DNA of 64,000 bases from Acidimicrobiia bacterium (GTDB taxonomy: Bacteria > Actinomycetota > Acidimicrobiia > IMCC26256 > PALSA-610), in the NCBI GenBank assembly GCA_036271555.1, contig DATBAK010000003.1, forward strand, positions 1 through 64,000, read 5' to 3'. Under the pieces are notes generated by a model, which did not search any database, had not been told where the DNA came from, and worked only from the letters and a program-made list of their open reading frames with translations. Positions within the stretch are counted from its first letter, which is position 1; each line of letters starts with the position of its first letter. A program made the position numbers and the translations under genes. Below, one piece after another: positions 1 to 8,346 of this stretch.

Positions 1-527
1 ACCATCTGTGAGAAGTGATTGCGATCACCGAAGGCGGTCAACATCGCCAGCGTGTTCATCCCGACGCCCGGCTTGGTGACCTCTACCGTTCCGATCACAT
101 GATCGTCGGCATCGCGCACGCGCAGTGCGACCGTGACCAGCCCGATCTCGTCTCCCATGTACATACTCGGCGTGGCCCACCATGTCGCGACGGAACCGCA
201 GGGCGCCAGATCGTCCACCACGTCACGAAGCGCGGGATGGAGCATCTGACGCAGCTCCTCGCGATCGACACCGAGATCGGCGAGGATCCATTCACCCTTA
301 TGCCGCAGCGACGCTCGGTACACGTCGAGCGAGGGATCCATAGGACCCTCCACGACCAGCGCCTCGGGACTGAACCCGAACAGGTCGCTGACAAGAGACC
401 GATCAACGGTCGCCGCCATCTCAGCTGTCACTGCCACCAGGCGCCACTGAACGTCGTATGCGTTGGCCCAGAAACCGCCGCCTTCCAACGCTGCCACCAC
501 TTCGGCCAAAGCCGGATGAACGAGCAC
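1..527 (-). CDS. N-terminal module of a probable class III cyclase-type protein (3' end outside window)
   Basis: An open frame of 175 codons without a stop runs off the left edge. I start it at the GTG at 527, which has GGAGG five bases upstream; the next in-frame stop upstream is near 592 with no other start between. The protein is soluble, with HPALAEVV near the start, GEWILADLG in the middle and a segment ending VTKPGVGMNTLAMLTAFGD. That layout resembles the sensory N-terminal half of actinobacterial adenylate/guanylate cyclase proteins, where the catalytic domain follows immediately. The catalytic half lies outside the window, so the cyclase call is from family memory, not from visible catalytic residues. 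Confidence 0.5.
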   Translation of the reverse strand, partial: MLVHPALAEVVAALEGGGFWANAYDVQWRLVAVTAEMAATVDRSLVSDLFGFSPEALVVEGPMDPSLDVYRASLRHKGEWILADLGVDREELRQMLHPALRDVVDDLAPCGSVATWWATPSMYMGDEIGLVTVALRVRDADDHVIGTVEVTKPGVGMNTLAMLTAFGDRNHFSQM

Positions 528-664
528 CTGCCTCCCGCCGCCGTCCGTCGTCCCGACCCCCGAGAGCGCATATTGCCCGCTCTGTGCTCGTTATGCGAGC
601 AACCGTCGGCGTCGCGCGGCGACCTCGACCTCCGCATGTCCGAGGTCAGCCGCATCGTCTCCGA

Positions 665-802
665 CTACTTCTTCTTGCTCGGGGTCTGCGCGAGCGCGCT
701 AGCCGCCGCTGCCTTGTCAGCAGCGCTCGACTTCGGGCTCGCCAGCACCTTGCCAGCCGCCGAAGCTGCCTTCGGGCCGGTCTGTCGGGTGTTCTTTCCC
801 AT
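665..802 (-). CDS. 45-residue lysine/alanine-rich small protein
   Basis: A short frame of 45 codons starts MGKNTRQTGPKAAS and ends in three lysines before TAG. A strong purine-rich ribosome site (AGGGGGTGGAGG) lies just upstream of the ATG. The composition is almost entirely Ala, Lys, Ser and Gly, giving a basic, probably unstructured or helical peptide. Very similar small basic proteins of unknown function are widespread in bacteria, often near mobile regions. It is too short for domain analysis; its reality rests on the start signal and the family-like composition. Confidence 0.6.
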   Translation of the reverse strand: MGKNTRQTGPKAASAAGKVLASPKSSAADKAAAASALAQTPSKKK

Positions 803-904
803 GGCCTCCACCCCCTTTCGGTGTTTGCCGACCGGCCTGGCAGTGGCACATACTCCCGGTTGCTAAGGCCACGAGCTGGAGGACCACTACAGGTCTCGGT
901 TCGG

Positions 905-952
905 CTGGGTGTGGTGGGTCCGGACCTCTGCGCCCTGACCCACCATCACCAG
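905..952. terminator. Hairpin in gap, possible transcription terminator
   Basis: An 8-bp perfect stem (913-920 with 937-944, GGTGGGTC/GACCCACC) is flanked by a further 4-bp pairing (CTGG at 905-908 with CCAG at 949-952). It lies in the gap after the stop of the 1009-1245 gene, on its downstream side, so it could end that transcript. There is no clear T-run. Confidence 0.35.
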
Positions 953-1008
953 TATGGGCGGCGATTGCGACACAGAACCTGGCTCCGAGTCCAGAACGAC
1001 GGTCGCCG

Positions 1009-1245
1009 CTAGTTGGCTTGTGCGAGCCGCGCCTTCACTGTCACGTCGAGTTGGTTGATCGGCACGTACTCGCCGTAGCCGTGGCGCACGAGTGCTTCAT
1101 AGTGCCGATACATCCGAGTCGAGATGCCCGGTGAGCCGAGGCTCGCGAGCGCTTCGTTGATCTCTTCGCGGCTCGGAGCCGGGTCGGAGTCGATGAAGAT
1201 CTCCCAACCGGATCGAGCCGCTTGCTTCGCCGCATCTGACGACAT
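1009..1245 (-). CDS. Hypothetical protein, 78 aa
   Basis: The gene begins ATG at 1245 with AGGAGG seven bases upstream, a strong start signal. The product is a small soluble protein with a balanced composition. Its middle reads REEINEALASLG and is followed by a tyrosine-rich segment, MYRHYEALVRHGYGEYVPI. I do not recognise a family. It is divergent from the membrane protein gene at 1422 and lies in the less GC-rich left-hand island, so it is probably accessory. Confidence 0.6.
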   Translation of the reverse strand: MSSDAAKQAARSGWEIFIDSDPAPSREEINEALASLGSPGISTRMYRHYEALVRHGYGEYVPINQLDVTVKARLAQAN

Positions 1246-1421
1246 TCGTAGTCCTCCTGGCCTTTGGGCCCTACTTCGCGACCCGTATTACAGCGCGGGA
1301 ATTACACCGCTGTCAACGGAGGGTGGCGTCGCGCTCACCGCGCGCGTTCACGCGCGGCTCGTAGCGAAAGGAAGGAGACGCACCAGACGCTTTCGTCGTA
1401 TCAACGGAGTAGAACGGCGAG

Positions 1422-1943
1422 ATGCTTGCGCTGGGAGTCGGAGCGTGGAGCCTCGTTATCGCGGTCGCATTGCTCGCGATCGCGGTACCGACGCTTATGT
1501 ACACGCGACGGTCCGCGAAACCCCGCTCGATCGAAGCCGAGCGCAAATCAGTTCCGGCGGGCCCAGACGTAAGCGTCTCGGCACACATGGGCGTGCCAGT
1601 TCCGGACGGACCACCCCTGGCCGGAATCGAAGCCGCGAACGTCGGGGCCTTGGCAACAACGATTCAGGGCTGGGGGTTCGAGATCGAGCGCGCCGGAGGT
1701 TCTCAGGTGGTCGACCCGTTTGGCGGCTACCTATCGCCTTCAGTTCCGTACCGCTTGGCGTCGCACGACTCGGCGAGCTTTCGGATGGAACTCGTTCCGA
1801 TGTTGGCTTCGGTCCTTCCGCATACCGGCGGGCGCTCAGTCGCTCTCATTCCCTTCGTGCGCGTCGCGACAGGGCGCGTTCGCGGCGAGGCTTGGACGGC
1901 GCATGAGGACTGGTGGAATCAGGCCCGCGCTCTGGGGAGCTAG
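1422..1943 (+). CDS. Hypothetical single-span membrane protein, 173 aa
   Basis: The product starts with one hydrophobic segment (about residues 5-26) followed by Arg-Arg and a soluble remainder, so it is probably membrane-anchored with the bulk on the cytoplasmic side. The C-terminal half contains PFGGYLSPSVPYRL and a conserved-looking VALIPFVRV stretch. The ribosome site is weak. No family is recognised. The gene stands alone, divergent from the 1009-1245 gene, inside the accessory left-hand region. Confidence 0.5.
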   Translation: MLALGVGAWSLVIAVALLAIAVPTLMYTRRSAKPRSIEAERKSVPAGPDVSVSAHMGVPVPDGPPLAGIEAANVGALATTIQGWGFEIERAGGSQVVDPFGGYLSPSVPYRLASHDSASFRMELVPMLASVLPHTGGRSVALIPFVRVATGRVRGEAWTAHEDWWNQARALGS

Positions 1944-2350
1944 CGGCCGGGCCAGACGAGCAGCGCGCTCAGTTAGGCGACCGCGCATACCGATAACGCG
2001 ATCTGCCGTGTAATTCTGGCCTCGTTAGCCTGTAACAGAGGATCGACATCGACCATTGCGGTCCTGGTCACAGCTAACGGTGAAGTCCTCTCTGCTGGTC
2101 AGAGGCGTTTGTCCTGGTCATACGGCCATGATTCTCGAATGATGGATCGCGACGTCTTCCAGCGTTCGGCGGCCTCTCGCGGCGTCTCGCGGCCTGGCCG
2201 CGGCCTCAGTGCGCGGGTGGAAGCGTGTGCACCAACGCGCGCGGCACCATGCCTCGTTCACCACGGGGACAGACGGGCGAGGCGCGAGATCGGCGGAGCT
2301 ACCTCGGGCGCCTGCCGCGGCTCGCGGCGGCCATCAGCAGCGGTTGGGAG
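1944..2350. other. 407-bp gap with no recognisable gene
   Basis: This stretch between the membrane protein and the broken ATPase is less GC-rich than most of the window. I see no good start signal, tRNA or inverted repeat. Short open frames here lack ribosome sites and have low-complexity compositions. It may hold the promoter of the downstream remnant. Confidence 0.5.
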
Positions 2351-3435
2351 GTGAGTGTCCGACCCGCGCCGCAGCTTTCACAGATGCCGACGAGTCTTCC
2401 GGTCACGGTGGCTGCGGACCAGTTCGACGAACTGTGCAAGCCGACGCAGCCGCTCGCGGCCGTGGCCGAGTTGGTCTGGAACGCGCTCGACGCCGAAGCG
2501 ACAACGGTGGATGTCGTGATCGGCCGTACGGAGATGGACGCGGTGCGAAGCGTCAAGGTGATCGACAACGGCCACGGCATGGCGCACGCCGAGCGATCCG
2601 AGACTTCAGCACCCTCGGAGGCTCATGGAAGAAGGGCCAGAAGCTCTCGAAGAACGGCGCGCGCCCGTTGCACGGTAAGAAGGGTCAGGGCCGCTTCCGC
2701 GCGTTCGCCCTTGGGAACGAGGCCGAGTGGACGACGGTCGCCGACGCGTTCGGTGGGGGCCTCGAACGCACGGCTGTCTTCGGTTCGTTGGACGCTTCGG
2801 AGTTCACCGTCAGTGATCCCGAGGCTCTCGCAACAGGCCGGTCAGGCACGACCGTAAGTGTCACGGGAGCACGCGAGACAACCGGCCCGCTTCTCAGGGA
2901 TTCAGCGTCGAACTGGCTCGTCGTTCGCTTCGCGGCGTATCTGGCTCGCTACACGAACGTCGTCGTGAGTTACGACGGGACTCATCTCGACCCGGCTTCG
3001 ATCCTCGAACACGAGGAAGACGTCGAGCTTGATCCGACTCTGGGCGGTGACCTCGGCTCGGTTCGGTTGCACGTGATGGAGTGGAAGCCCGAGATCATCG
3101 ACCACCGAAGCTCGATCATCGTGTGCGACGGTGAAGGCGTAGCGATCGACGAGATCATCGACCGTGTTCCTCAGACGCGCAAGATCACGGCGTACCTCGC
3201 GTGGCCGGGCTTCGAGCAGCATGGGAAGGACATCTCGATCGCCGAGATGGGACACGCAGTTCTGAACCCGATCATGGACGCGACGCGCGCCGGGATCGCC
3301 GACTACCTGTCCAGACGCAGCGCGGCCGAACGTCAGGACGTGAATGGTTCCCACCGGCGTGCTGAGTGCCAGCCTTCAAGGGGTGGTCGACAGGGTGCGG
3401 CAGGTAATCGCGGCTGTGAACGGCTGGACGACTGA
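2351..3435 (+). pseudogene. Frameshifted GHKL (Hsp90-like) ATPase
   Basis: The first part, starting at GTG 2351 or ATG 2384, contains the N-box (ELVWNALDAEA) and the G1 box (VIDNGHGM) of GHKL ATPases. After GMAHAE, near 2593, the homologous reading continues in the next frame as RDFSTLGGSWKKG, then HGKKGQGRFRAFALG and a long beta-rich region to about 3330. Restoring one G in gagcg would rejoin the frames, so this looks like a single-base deletion. The continuation also lacks a plausible C-terminus: it ends in junk after RRSAAERQD, right where the helicase remnant begins. The intact protein would bind ATP in a lid-closing mechanism. The family occurs in mobile and defence-type loci, but I cannot name this system. 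Confidence 0.75.
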
Positions 3436-4024
3436 TGACACTCTCGGGCAGCGGCGCGTAGCTCTTGCTCAACTCATCGAGCATGCGCGCGGCGCGGCGG
3501 ATAGGGCCGATTGGGAGACCTTTACGCAAGGGCTATCCGACGACGTGCTGCTGTCTGAACTTCGCGGCCTTCTGTTCGCCGAGAACGACGACGAGATGCA
3601 CAGTGTCACCGTTGCGATGCACGAGAGGCTCGGCCTTGTTCCCCCGCCCGAGGCGGGTTCCGATCGCATACGGATCATGACCATGCACGGAGCGAAGGGG
3701 CTGTCGGCGAACGTCGTGTTCATCCCGGGCCTAGAGGACCAAGTGTTTCCCGGTCCGAAGCGAGGTTTGGCTGCGGGCCTCGTGCTCGAAGGTGCCCGCA
3801 CGCTCTACGTATCGCTCACACGTGCGCGGGCCGCCGTGATCTGCACGTCCTCGAAGACACGCTTCCAGAACGGTCGATTCGGAACGAATTCTCCAAGCCG
3901 GTACCTGACGGTGCTCGGGAACACCGTCACGAGTAGGACGACAGGTCTCTCGAAGAGCGAGGCTTCGGCGATTGCCACCACGGTCGCTATGGTCAATCAA
4001 ACAGCCTTGATCGCTCGCGCGTGA
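3344..4024 (+). pseudogene. 3' remnant of a UvrD/PcrA-type superfamily 1 helicase
   Basis: The 226-residue frame carries only late helicase motifs: TMHGAKGL (motif V region) and LYVSLTRAR (motif VI). The Walker A and B motifs of a normal 600-800 residue UvrD helicase are absent. It opens immediately after an in-frame TGA and butts directly against the end of the GHKL ATPase remnant. The simplest reading is a deletion that removed the 3' end of the ATPase gene and the 5' two-thirds of the helicase gene. The fragment cannot hydrolyse ATP. Together the two remnants suggest an ATPase-helicase pair, perhaps a defence module, that has been lost. Confidence 0.75.
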
Positions 4025-4183
4025 CTCACCTCGACGCTCGGGTTGCTCTGTCGACCTGTTTCCGAAGGCCCTACAACGGCTCGCGGGAGCGCGGGCATGA
4101 GGTACACGAAGGGACATGTCGGCTGCCGTCGCAGTTCGTCTCGCACAGTGGCGGCCTCCGAACCTGCTCTCGACATCGCGACA

Positions 4184-4843
4184 TCACGCCGGCGGCACCA
4201 GGTGCGCGAGGTTCGTGATGCCCGCGGTGAGGTGCGCGGCGGGGTCGGGCCACGCGAACGACGTGATGGTCGACGGCAGCGCCACCATCCCGTGCACGAA
4301 GTACCAGATCGCGACGCTGTCGGTCGTGGCGTCGGTGCTCGTGGAGCGACCCGCGTCGATGCACGTCTGGAGCAGGCCGATCATCATCGCGACGGTGCCC
4401 GCGAAGATCGGCAGCGTCTCGACCATCGGTCGCTCGTCGTCGTCCCACAACGAGAGGAACCGGCGCTCGAAGATGACGCGGTACTGCGTCGGATGCGCCC
4501 GTCCGAACTCGACGTACGCGCGCCACGCGGCGAAGAGCGCGGCCACCGGATCGGCGGCGCGCGCCGCCGCGGTGAGCTGCGTCGCGAGGGTGCCGAGCTC
4601 CTCGGCAACGACCGCGTCGATGATCGCGGCGCGATCCGGGAAGTGGGCCGAGATCGACGGCGCGGTGATCCCGATCTCGCGCGCCACGGCGCGCAGCGTG
4701 ACCGCGTCCTCGGATCCGGAGCGCTCGAGGATCGCCGTCGCGCCGGCGACGATCTCCGCCCGCAGCAGGTGTCCCTGGCCACGGGCATTGCGTTGCCGGG
4801 CCGATGCCCGGCTCCCCTTCTCGTGCGCTTCCACCGCGACCAT
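4184..4843 (-). CDS. TetR-family transcriptional regulator
   Basis: The N-terminal region (about residues 25-75) is a TetR DNA-binding domain, with LRAVAREIGITAPSISAHFPDRAAIIDAV forming the helix-turn-helix and its following tyrosine/phenylalanine turn. The remaining 140 residues form the all-helical ligand-binding domain, with a WRAYVEFGRAHP segment typical of the TetR_C_33 type. The gene is divergent from the large secreted protein at 4954 across an AT-rich 110-bp gap and probably controls itself, that gene, or both. Its ligand is unknown. Confidence 0.85.
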   Translation of the reverse strand: MVAVEAHEKGSRASARQRNARGQGHLLRAEIVAGATAILERSGSEDAVTLRAVAREIGITAPSISAHFPDRAAIIDAVVAEELGTLATQLTAAARAADPVAALFAAWRAYVEFGRAHPTQYRVIFERRFLSLWDDDERPMVETLPIFAGTVAMMIGLLQTCIDAGRSTSTDATTDSVAIWYFVHGMVALPSTITSFAWPDPAAHLTAGITNLAHLVPPA

Positions 4844-4953
4844 TTTTACGCCGACTCACCTACCCCTCGTATGCTTTCTCATTAAAGTTTACAGTTGACA
4901 GTATACATATGATTAGTTAGCGTCCCCTCGCAGGATCGGACCGAGGGGGCAGC
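4844..4953. promoter_or_regulatory. AT-rich divergent promoter region
   Basis: Around 4880-4918 the sequence is strikingly AT-rich for this genome. It contains TTGACA at 4895-4900, two direct ACAGT units and the palindromes GTATAC and CATATG close together. It separates a TetR gene from the secreted-protein gene, so TetR binding here is likely. No single operator palindrome is obvious. Confidence 0.5.
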
Positions 4954-7900
4954 GTGGACAGCACCGGCGAGCAGCAAACGCGAGGGCCAAAGGGTGCGTC
5001 CCGGCGCGCATCCCGGCCGTGGCGGCGCGCGGTGGCCATGGCCGCGATCGCGGGCCTGGTCTCGGCACTGACCCTCGTGCGGGTCGACATCACTCCGGCC
5101 GGCGCGGCGGATCCCGCGCAGACCGTGCAGACCTCGAAGACCGGCACGTTCGGTTCGATCGAGGAGGTGACCACGACCAGCGGCATCAACCAGGTCACGA
5201 TGGTCGCGGGCCTGATCGCCACGGCGCCGACGACCAGCGACGGGACGAGCCACGGGAGCGACGATTCGACCACCGCGGTGGCGCCCTTGCCGTACCAGTC
5301 GGTGTACTTCTCGGTCGAGGCACAGAACGGCATCTGGTATCCGCTGTGCAACCAGACAACCAATGCCGGTGGAATGGCCGGGTGCTCGGCCGAAGCGCCG
5401 TATTTCATGCTCCAGCAGACCGTCGGCGGCCCCTACATCAAGCAGTACTACGTACTCAGCGCGTGGTCGGCGGCGTACCAGGGCGGAACGCAGAGCTCGG
5501 TCACCTACGGGAGCTCGAGTGACTACGGGCTGATTCCCGGCGCACCGGCGCCCGCGCCGACACCGCCCGACAACGGCGGCATCGAGATCGTCCCCCAGAG
5601 ATACGCCTCGGGCTGCAAGCCGCAAGACCCCAACGCGCCGGGCTCGTTCCTCGACATCTTCACCGACGGCGGGAACTGCAATCTCGTCGCCCTGGAGAAG
5701 ATCGCGGCACCGTTCGCGATGGGCTTCGCCGCCATCGTGACCGGAGGCCTCGTCGTGCTGCCCGTGTTGCTCAACCAGATCGCGTCAGTCGCGGCGATAT
5801 TCGCCACGACGTTCGTTCCCGTCAACATCATCCAAACGTCCCTCATCGGTTTGACCGGCATCGCGGCGGCATCCCTCGAGGTTCTGGGCCCGCTCGCCGG
5901 AATCGGTCTCGTGTTGGGCACCGTGTCGGGTGGTTTGCTCGCCAACTACGAGACGACCTCGATCGGACCGACCGGCGACCTCCAGATCGGAACCGGAGGC
6001 ACCCTCGAAAACGATGGCGTGTTGAACAACAACGGGACGATCCAGGACGCCAGCTCGTCCAGCAACGGTGCCGGGACGATCGTCAACCACGGCACGATCG
6101 TCAACAACGGCACGATCCCCAACAACGGCCAAGGTGGCGGTGGTCTGTTGATCACCGCCAACAACTACACGCTCAACTTCGACCTGGCCGGCCCGGGCAA
6201 CCCCCCCTCGGCAATGCATGTGTTCGCTCCGACGGTGACCGCATCGCAGCAGTCGCTCCCCACGCCGTCCGACCCGGGATCCGCCAAGGTCTTCACCGGC
6301 TGGTACACCGCGGCCGAGGGCGGAACCGCGGTGGCGAACGACACCGACCTCTCGGCACTGCTGCCCACCGGACCTTCGTCGACCACGCTGTACGCCCACT
6401 TCGTCGCCCGCTCCGACCTCGGCACCGCGACGACGGCGAGCGGGGCCACGACCACCTACTCAACCGCGGCTCAGAACGTCAGCCTGACCGCCCACGTCGT
6501 GAACTCGGCCGGGCCCGTCGCCGAGGGCAACGTCATCTTCACTCTGTACAACGGCTCGAACCAGACGGTGGCCACGCCGGTCACCGCACCGATCGGTGAG
6601 GGCACGGCGTCGACCCTCTACGCGCTTCCGGCCGGCCTCGCTGCCGGGACCTACCGCGTGCAGGCCAACTACAGCGACCCCGGGGGACTGAACGAGATCA
6701 GCGGCGACGGGGTGCCGAACGTCGTCGTGGCCCAGGCGCCGACCACGACGACCGGCGCGGTATCGACGGTGTACAGCGGCGACACCCAGGACATCCCGGT
6801 CACCGCGCAGGTGTCGTCGTCAGTGGCGACGGTCGACGAAGGCACCGTGACGTTCACCCTCGAAGATGGCAACCAGGCCGCGGTCACCGCGAGCGCGCCC
6901 GTTGCCAACGGGACCGCTGCGACCGTGCTGCCCGTCCCGGCCGGCCTTCTGAGCGGTACGTATTCGATCCTCGGCACGTACCGCGACATGGGCGGCAATT
7001 TCGGGAACAGCTCCGACATCGAGCCGGGCGGGCTCCCGCAGTCGGTCGTCCTGCCGAATCCCTTGCAGAACTTCGTCGTCGGCCGGACCTGGTCTCCGAG
7101 CGAACCATTCTCGCTGAGCATCTTCAACGACGTGCTCTACAGCGGTCTGGACCCGGCCTCGACCGGCTGCACCTGGGACGGCTTCACGCTCAAGTTCTTC
7201 GACGTCGGCACCTGCTTGCTCGACGCGACGTTCCCGGCAGCCGACGGGTACGCCGCGACCCCGGTGCAGCTGCGCGTTCCGATCGGCCCGGCCGAGAACG
7301 TCTACGAGGTCCAGTCGTGGCCGGGCAGCAACGTGGCGGTGGGCAGCACGTTCACACCCAAGGTGACGTCGGTCTCCGGACTGCCCGCGACCCTGTCGAT
7401 CGATCCGTCCTCGACGGGCGGGTGCAGCGTGTACAACGGCACGCTCATGTTCAACTCGGTCGGCGTGTGTTACGTCGACTTCACCACGCCGACGACGTCG
7501 AAGTACTTCGGCGGGACCTACAAGTACTACTACATCAACATCAATCTCGATCCTCAAGGCATCACGTTCATCGCGTCGCCACCCGCGGTGGTCGGCGGTT
7601 CGTATCCGGTGTGGGCCACGTCGGACTCGAGTCAAACGGTGAGCCTGAGCGTGGATCCGGCATCCGCACGCGTGTGCACGATCACCGGGAACACCGTCAC
7701 CTATGCGCGGGTCGGATCGTGCGTGGTCGACGGGGCGGTTGCGTCGTCGGGGAACTACGCGGCGGGAACCGCGTCGGAAACGATCACGGTCGGGAAGGCG
7801 CAACCGACGATCACGTTCTCGGCACCGCCGGACGACGCGGCGGTGGGCGGGACGTACGCGGTGTCGGCCACCGCCAGCTCCGGTGCCCCCGTCGCGTTGA

Positions 7901-8346
7901 AGGTCGACGCGACGACACGACGCGCCTGCTCCCTCGGCGCGGGCACCGTGACGTTCACGCACGCGGGCTCGTGCCAGATCGACGGTTCGGTCAAGGCGTC
8001 CGGTGGCTCGGCGCGCGTGACGGCTTCCCAGACGATCGCCGTCGCGAAACCCGTGCCGCTGCAGATCACTTCGGCGACACCGAACTCGGGCCCGGTCGCG
8101 GGTGGAACGCCGATCGACATCATCGGCACCGGGTTCGCGGCCGGAGACCAGGTCGTCATCGGACAGGGCCGCGGTGCGCGCACGGACACCATCGCCGCGA
8201 CGCAGGTCACCATCGTCTCGCCGACCGAGATCACCGCGGTCACCGGAGGTGGGGCCAAGGCCGGCACCTTCACCGTCTATGTGATCAACACCTCGGGGAA
8301 GGTCTCGAAGGCTGTCGCCGACGTTCGGTTCACCTATCGGCCGTAG
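4954..8346 (+). CDS. Large secreted multi-domain surface protein (Ig-like, Flg_new and IPT/TIG domains)
   Basis: The gene starts at GTG 4954 behind GAGGGGG. The 1130-residue product has a signal peptide or anchor at about residues 28-50 ending near PAGAADP. A very hydrophobic block at about 250-330 follows, unusual for an exported protein. Next come Asn-Gly repeats of the type NNGTI (349-399), an InlB/Flg_new-like beta repeat with FTGWYTAAEGGTAV (405-484), two bacterial Ig-like repeats (486-695, each with VTFTLxxGxxxxV), several repeats containing PTITFSAPP-type units, and a C-terminal IPT/TIG domain (TPNSGPVAGGTPIDIIGTGF, about 1036-1129). Such modules are used for adhesion or extracellular scaffolding. 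No LPXTG sorting signal is present. Divergent TetR control is likely. Confidence 0.8.
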   Translation: MDSTGEQQTRGPKGASRRASRPWRRAVAMAAIAGLVSALTLVRVDITPAGAADPAQTVQTSKTGTFGSIEEVTTTSGINQVTMVAGLIATAPTTSDGTSHGSDDSTTAVAPLPYQSVYFSVEAQNGIWYPLCNQTTNAGGMAGCSAEAPYFMLQQTVGGPYIKQYYVLSAWSAAYQGGTQSSVTYGSSSDYGLIPGAPAPAPTPPDNGGIEIVPQRYASGCKPQDPNAPGSFLDIFTDGGNCNLVALEKIAAPFAMGFAAIVTGGLVVLPVLLNQIASVAAIFATTFVPVNIIQTSLIGLTGIAAASLEVLGPLAGIGLVLGTVSGGLLANYETTSIGPTGDLQIGTGGTLENDGVLNNNGTIQDASSSSNGAGTIVNHGTIVNNGTIPNNGQGGGGLLITANNYTLNFDLAGPGNPPSAMHVFAPTVTASQQSLPTPSDPGSAKVFTGWYTAAEGGTAVANDTDLSALLPTGPSSTTLYAHFVARSDLGTATTASGATTTYSTAAQNVSLTAHVVNSAGPVAEGNVIFTLYNGSNQTVATPVTAPIGEGTASTLYALPAGLAAGTYRVQANYSDPGGLNEISGDGVPNVVVAQAPTTTTGAVSTVYSGDTQDIPVTAQVSSSVATVDEGTVTFTLEDGNQAAVTASAPVANGTAATVLPVPAGLLSGTYSILGTYRDMGGNFGNSSDIEPGGLPQSVVLPNPLQNFVVGRTWSPSEPFSLSIFNDVLYSGLDPASTGCTWDGFTLKFFDVGTCLLDATFPAADGYAATPVQLRVPIGPAENVYEVQSWPGSNVAVGSTFTPKVTSVSGLPATLSIDPSSTGGCSVYNGTLMFNSVGVCYVDFTTPTTSKYFGGTYKYYYININLDPQGITFIASPPAVVGGSYPVWATSDSSQTVSLSVDPASARVCTITGNTVTYARVGSCVVDGAVASSGNYAAGTASETITVGKAQPTITFSAPPDDAAVGGTYAVSATASSGAPVALKVDATTRRACSLGAGTVTFTHAGSCQIDGSVKASGGSARVTASQTIAVAKPVPLQITSATPNSGPVAGGTPIDIIGTGFAAGDQVVIGQGRGARTDTIAATQVTIVSPTEITAVTGGGAKAGTFTVYVINTSGKVSKAVADVRFTYRP

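Follow-up and report, generated by a model that had tools for sequence, protein, structure and literature searches.

ParaMORC3 proteins are described as combining a GHKL-S5 module with a restriction endonuclease (RE)-fold domain that carries an E-D-ExK signature (Iyer, Abhiman and Aravind 2008; PMC2292703), and HATPase_c_3 proteins are reported to be linked with restriction-modification genes (PMC8011034). VcSduA of V. cholerae, in which a GHKL domain is joined to a PD-(D/E)xK nuclease, is presented as a single-gene anti-phage system, and the exchanges E27A (the ATPase glutamate) and K557A (the nuclease lysine) are each stated to abolish phage defence. The same source files VcSduA as Shedu type I-D and mentions that such proteins were earlier named paraMORC3 (PMC12137116).

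The locus considered here lies near the start of the window, by which we mean the whole stretch of 64,000 nucleotides that was analysed; it covers contig C3 (126 kb) from its first base up to 64 kb, in a genome of 104 contigs. A broken ATPase gene is followed there by the tail of a helicase gene on the same strand (Table 1). We consider it probable that the locus is the scar of one deletion in decaying, probably acquired DNA, in which a paraMORC3-type gene was butted against the end of a UvrD-family helicase gene.

Table 1 Features of the ATPase-helicase locus (window coordinates)
Feature	Position	Strand	Evidence
First GHKL (HATPase_c_3) piece, frame 2	2384..2599	+	Pfam HATPase_c_3; 67% identity to L069
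Frame change, as from the loss of one base	2593..2599	+	tblastn of 3 intact relatives, frame 2 to frame 1
Second GHKL piece, frame 1: rest of ATPase domain and S5/transducer	2593..3342	+	L069 identity
Junction interval	3334..3375	.	Ends of the ATPase alignments (3333, 3366 and 3375); start of the longest helicase alignment (3365)
226-aa ORF, last third of a UvrD-family helicase; N-terminal helicase domain absent	3344..4024	+	UvrD_C; alignments; PcrA

Two gene pieces and their junction

The start of the ATPase reading (2384-2593) matches Pfam HATPase_c_3 at 9.9e-11, and in tblastn residues 7-72 of the intact relative L069 align with 2402-2599 in frame 2 at 67% identity. The alignment is continued in frame 1, in which L069 residues 73-319 cover 2599-3333 at 50% identity and stop there, at residue 319 of 654. 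The switch of frame is common to three intact queries (L069, L109 and L106) and falls at 2593 for L109 and L106, whose second pieces are 51 and 49% identical, gapped, and reach 3366 and 3375. Intact relatives are 654-657 aa long, and the window reading corresponds to their first 319-331 residues with identities of 49-67%; most of it lies in a frame-1 ORF that is open over 408 aa.

Two of the three paraMORC3 features were found in this piece: the N-terminal GHKL domain with ATP-binding motifs, and the S5-type transducer, which was judged through L069 (residues 7-319 covered; residues 8-320 of its model fit the MORC3 ATPase module). The C-terminal RE-fold nuclease with E-D-ExK is absent from the window ATPase gene. 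A nuclease profile gave no match in the six frames of window 1-6000, and the lost ATPase residues gave none elsewhere in the genome. Judged by its alignments, the window gene is of the paraMORC3 type with its nuclease half lost, and the one-base frame change that splits the ATPase domain is an additional lesion away from the junction.

The 226-aa ORF that follows fits intact helicases in their final third only, which makes it a remnant rather than a full-length form. Its match to UvrD_C (3.5e-14) is confined to profile positions 285-349 of 350. Residues 486-667 of a Komagataeibacter plasmid helicase (683 aa) align with 3365-3967, the N-terminal UvrD domain of that protein (18-304) lying wholly before the aligned part, and residues 517-656 of a second intact helicase (765 aa) align with 3551-3952; a PcrA subunit of known structure matches the ORF at 2e-11. 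Since the fragment starts at residue 486 of its full-length homologue, ~485 N-terminal residues are missing. The N-terminal UvrD-helicase domain with the nucleotide-binding motifs of UvrD-family SF1A enzymes was not found in the fragment, nor were the earlier helicase motifs; the stretches around TMHGAKGLSANVVF and ARTLYVSLTRAR are presumably motifs V and VI, respectively. Searches for close relatives of the fragment gave two weak matches in viral contigs, and every match in phages and plasmids was below 60% identity. Searched as a degenerate pattern, the HGAKGL[ST]A stretch occurred in 2 of 396 phylum genomes, the window's own and that of L144; the latter was rejected as a relative, there being no helicase in its two ORFs of at least 150 aa.

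Both matches are beyond chance against 5 kb of the window (E 1.6e-93 for the ATPase and 5.7e-12 for the helicase). The sequence-only reading had described an ATPase homology that fades near 3330, a helicase reading from 3344 without the earlier motifs, and missing parts of the two genes that face each other. Alignments to intact relatives bear out each of these observations: the tblastn alignments stop at ~3333-3375, and of UvrD_C only the C-terminal part matches. The frame change at ~2593-2599 was absent from that reading. No long direct repeat was found at the junction among 20 of the 31 repeat families listed for 1-5000, and the DNA of 1-4150 gave only short matches (32-52 bases) to the 13 other family genomes compared, in five of them.

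Intact relatives of the ATPase and their surroundings

With the second ATPase piece as query, relatives were found in four of 296 class genomes (own included) and in 37 plasmid records. When 395 class genomes were searched with a profile, 11 had a match at 1e-10, in several cases confined to the GHKL part. Exact peptide patterns from the window piece found no relatives in genome contigs or viral contigs; a close-relative alignment search returned one viral contig. A profile scan of genome contigs yielded 476 relatives, and our survey covers the best 80 of them plus 10 plasmid loci and six further loci. One ATPase ORF covers nearly the whole family profile in 79 of these best 80, among which L109, L069, L106, L100 and L099 are closest to the window (48-51% identity over ~250 aa). 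Alignment A4 comprises 40 of the 80 loci; L088 (in-frame stop), L102, L103, L111, L112, L114, L007, L010 and L014 were left out of the first list, and alignment A5 is additionally without L081.

The intact relatives have the paraMORC3 architecture, i.e., an N-terminal GHKL domain with S5 transducer and a C-terminal PD-(D/E)XK nuclease. All 40 relatives that were aligned share D509, E528 and K530 (L069 numbering). The whole L069 model has a pLDDT of 84.3, and its residues 8-320 superpose on the ATPase module of mouse MORC3 (Z 20.9, rmsd 3.6, 283 aligned). The C-terminal nuclease domain, modelled alone with a pLDDT of 89.7, aligns with EndoMS (Z 10.4, rmsd 3.6, 112 aligned), with the Shedu nuclease domain of Bacillus cereus (Z 8.6, rmsd 4.0, 133 aligned) and with E. 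coli SduA (Z 7.8, rmsd 3.8, 142 aligned); Foldseek alone gave no match to the nuclease model at 0.001 or better. At the level of profiles, HSDR_N_2 matches the nuclease domains weakly (31/39, best 1.3e-4), none of 39 nuclease domains of relatives reaches E 1 with Pfam DUF4263, and the PADLOC SduA (DUF4263) profile matches four of 40 relatives, at best at 6.5e-5. The BbrUII/HgiDII profile NF050001 matches L069 at 8.7e-16 over residues 26-169 only, and the scores of 57.6 bits for L069 and 24.9 bits for the window piece do not place either in that family, whose cut-off is 550.

Several related genes deserve mention in their own right. At L119 (3067-5001; G212 contig 20), in a second genome of the window's family, a paraMORC3 copy is also broken, its pieces lying in different frames with in-frame stops. 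Pasteurella phage Pmp14 carries a full-length relative among tail genes (L169, 4995-6953), annotated as hypothetical and 32% identical over 98% of L069. In phage PhiR44_1 an annotated ParaMORC3 (L168, 3992-5950) and an adjacent Dcm gene separate the structural from the replication genes; this ParaMORC3 aligns with the family of the relatives in the GHKL part only (175 columns, probability 97.8). At L099 (11005-11778) and L157 (8306-9079, minus strand) a protein of ~257 aa without a Pfam match comes directly after the paraMORC3 gene, its start overlapping or abutting the paraMORC3 stop; no match to it was found in the other loci compared.

Defence genes lie near intact relatives in several of 94 loci: HmaA, HmaB and HmaC in at least three (L037, L099 and L100), GajA/GajB in at least two (L066 and L081), a type III restriction enzyme in at least two (L096 and L106) and a PDC-S37/Hhe-like helicase in at least one (L109). 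Neighbours at plasmid loci include a type ISP enzyme (L010), an N-6 methylase (L011) and, at L014, dcm, LlaMI-type endonuclease and drt2 genes. In L037 (2174-19285) HmaA and HmaB flank the paraMORC3-type gene and share its strand, and in L099 (1-11005) and L100 (1-11974) it is divergent from HmaA; the occurrence with HmaA/HmaB/HmaC in three loci may reflect a recurrent partnership. GajA matches in L051 and L053 were dropped, the query ORF there running antisense into the ATPase gene and the matches lying on that antisense stretch. In the window itself, none of the six ORFs within 1-4900 matches a further PADLOC defence gene at 0.01, so the term 'defence island' rests on the relatives.

Origin of the junction

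The left gene would originally have been of the paraMORC3 type, in which an N-terminal GHKL ATPase and S5 transducer of the MORC/MutL fold are followed by a PD-(D/E)XK nuclease. Where such a protein is functional, its ATPase may enclose DNA in an ATP-dependent dimer clamp, and the closed clamp may license the nuclease to cut invading DNA. The window gene carries the one-base frame change, and its 3' half is gone from about residue 320 onward, nuclease included; these two lesions would leave it unable to clamp and cut DNA. A single deletion that began in the ATPase gene and ended in the helicase gene, leaving the last third of a UvrD-family gene, would most simply account for the junction; with ~1.0 kb of ATPase and 1.45 kb of helicase coding sequence missing, it would have removed at least ~2.4 kb. 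Going by what is left of each, neither piece should retain the parental activity. We infer the single deletion, rather than read it directly, because no intact version of the window locus was found; the same sequence could also have arisen through two events, through an insertion or through a mis-join in the assembly.

Base composition fits an acquired origin of this DNA: the third-position GC is low before 4.1 kb (0.69-0.76 in five ORFs) compared with the next eight ORFs (0.89-0.94). Two other ORFs near the locus were noted. One, of at least 175 aa, runs off the contig end (3-527, minus strand) and looks coding-like by eye; the other (4954-8346, 1130 aa) shows by eye a hydrophobic stretch near its start and segments that recur in similar form, resembling a surface protein.

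An important question is which gene the helicase stub comes from. It could be the gajB end of a Gabija operon, the deletion having also taken gajA, so that two complete and independent defence systems were fused. The best PADLOC profile of the fragment is indeed GajB (2.7e-16, ending at position 601 of 604), and GajA and GajB directly adjoin intact ATPase relatives in L066 and L081. However, GajB profiles are unspecific, matching the L069 helicase at 2.3e-52, and a PcrA model matches the fragment at 2.8e-18. Furthermore, gajA was not found next to the stub: one GajA query gave no similar piece in the six frames of window 1-6000, no GajA appeared among the window ORFs scanned against PADLOC, and the orientation in L066 and L081 is divergent. 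We regard this origin as unlikely.

It is more doubtful still that the junction is an artefact of the assembly, in which unrelated fragments were joined near a contig end. The junction (~3.34 kb) does lie 3.3 kb from the first base of C3, in an assembly of many contigs. Nevertheless, the two pieces are alike in third-position GC (0.69 and 0.73), both below the following genes, the ATPase is already frame-broken away from the junction, and 2000-4300 occurs once in the genome.

Another question is whether the ancestor was a working two-gene system, as the sequence-only reading had proposed in placing an intact GHKL ATPase next to a UvrD helicase; the logic would resemble that of MutL and UvrD in mismatch repair, which are described as interacting physically (PMC2292703). 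L069, one of the five closest loci among the best 80, offers the arrangement in intact form (1666-7035), with a complete UvrD-HRDC gene in the same orientation 468 bp downstream of its complete ATPase gene. It is, however, the only one of the 80 in which a UvrD helicase is the next gene on the same strand. A UvrD-type helicase occurs in the flanks, some of them short, of four of the best 80 relatives (L066, L069, L081 and L083) and of none of the 10 plasmid and six further loci. In L066 and L081 the helicase is GajB-like and on the opposite strand, with GajA beside it, and in L083 it is ~8 kb away. In the annotation of the 10 plasmid loci, which is incomplete, no UvrD is listed within ~7 kb; L009 and L013 have an annotated DEAD/DEAH-box helicase nearby, not UvrD.

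Four loci exceed a crude expectation of 1.16, which takes four UvrD matches per 4.68 Mb in the window's genome over ~1.36 Mb of flank (P 0.03 for four or more), but P is 0.11 if the two similar Gabija loci are counted once. The model used for this count was built from 26 seeds that include the L066, L069 and L081 helicases, which therefore match by construction; two-seed models without these also recovered all three, and one of them missed L083. The L069 helicase is, moreover, of a different and widespread type: it is 28% identical to the window fragment over 105 aa, and its N-terminal region was found in 86 of 296 class genomes, as against the four (own included) for the ATPase piece. It has an N-terminal extension of ~190 residues. 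The GHKL-UvrD pair is thus not conserved, and the neighbours of intact ATPase-nuclease genes vary. As a protein of the same layout, VcSduA, is presented as a stand-alone system (PMC12137116) and the neighbours are so variable, an ancestral GHKL-UvrD pair is not supported, and a two-gene ancestor is very improbable. Slightly more remote is the thought that some actinobacterial paraMORC3 nucleases work with an adjacent SF1A helicase as a defence counterpart of MutL-UvrD, of which L069 would be an intact example and the window a wreck.

That both ORFs function as they stand, for instance by a programmed frameshift in the ATPase and as a short helicase-domain protein, is scarcely credible even though both are still open (226 and 408 aa), given the ATPase homology split over two frames, the helicase piece without a nucleotide-binding domain and the near full-length ORFs of nearly all surveyed relatives.

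Comparison with described systems

The scar, probably left by a deletion, looks like a product of chance and not the trace of a new two-part system. What had appeared as an ATPase-helicase pair that could not be assigned to a named defence system becomes a decayed example of a defence-nuclease layout already in print: the suspected link to defence survives in the defence-rich surroundings of the relatives, and the unassigned pair gives way to an ATPase-nuclease fusion of known kind. The case also shows how domain assignments, when made on truncated genes, may point to a two-gene system that is spurious. The GHKL-nuclease family, in turn, gains loci, several of them with adjacent defence genes.

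The 226-aa ORF aligns with the C-terminal third of UvrD/PcrA/Rep and GajB helicases, from which it differs in having no N-terminal helicase domain, and gajA was not found nearby. The GHKL region of the relatives resembles that of BbrUII/HgiDII-type restriction enzymes, although it falls far below the NF050001 cut-off. With VcSduA (Shedu type I-D, GHKL-DUF4263) the intact relatives share the order of domains, and their modelled nuclease aligns with Shedu nucleases; their nuclease domains do not reach Pfam DUF4263, the likeness to VcSduA itself being one of layout, and the window copy lacks the nuclease. As for paraMORC3, the window copy differs in being frame-shifted and reduced to the GHKL-S5 half, whereas its intact relatives show the full GHKL, S5 and D...ExK nuclease arrangement, several of them near restriction-modification or other defence genes.
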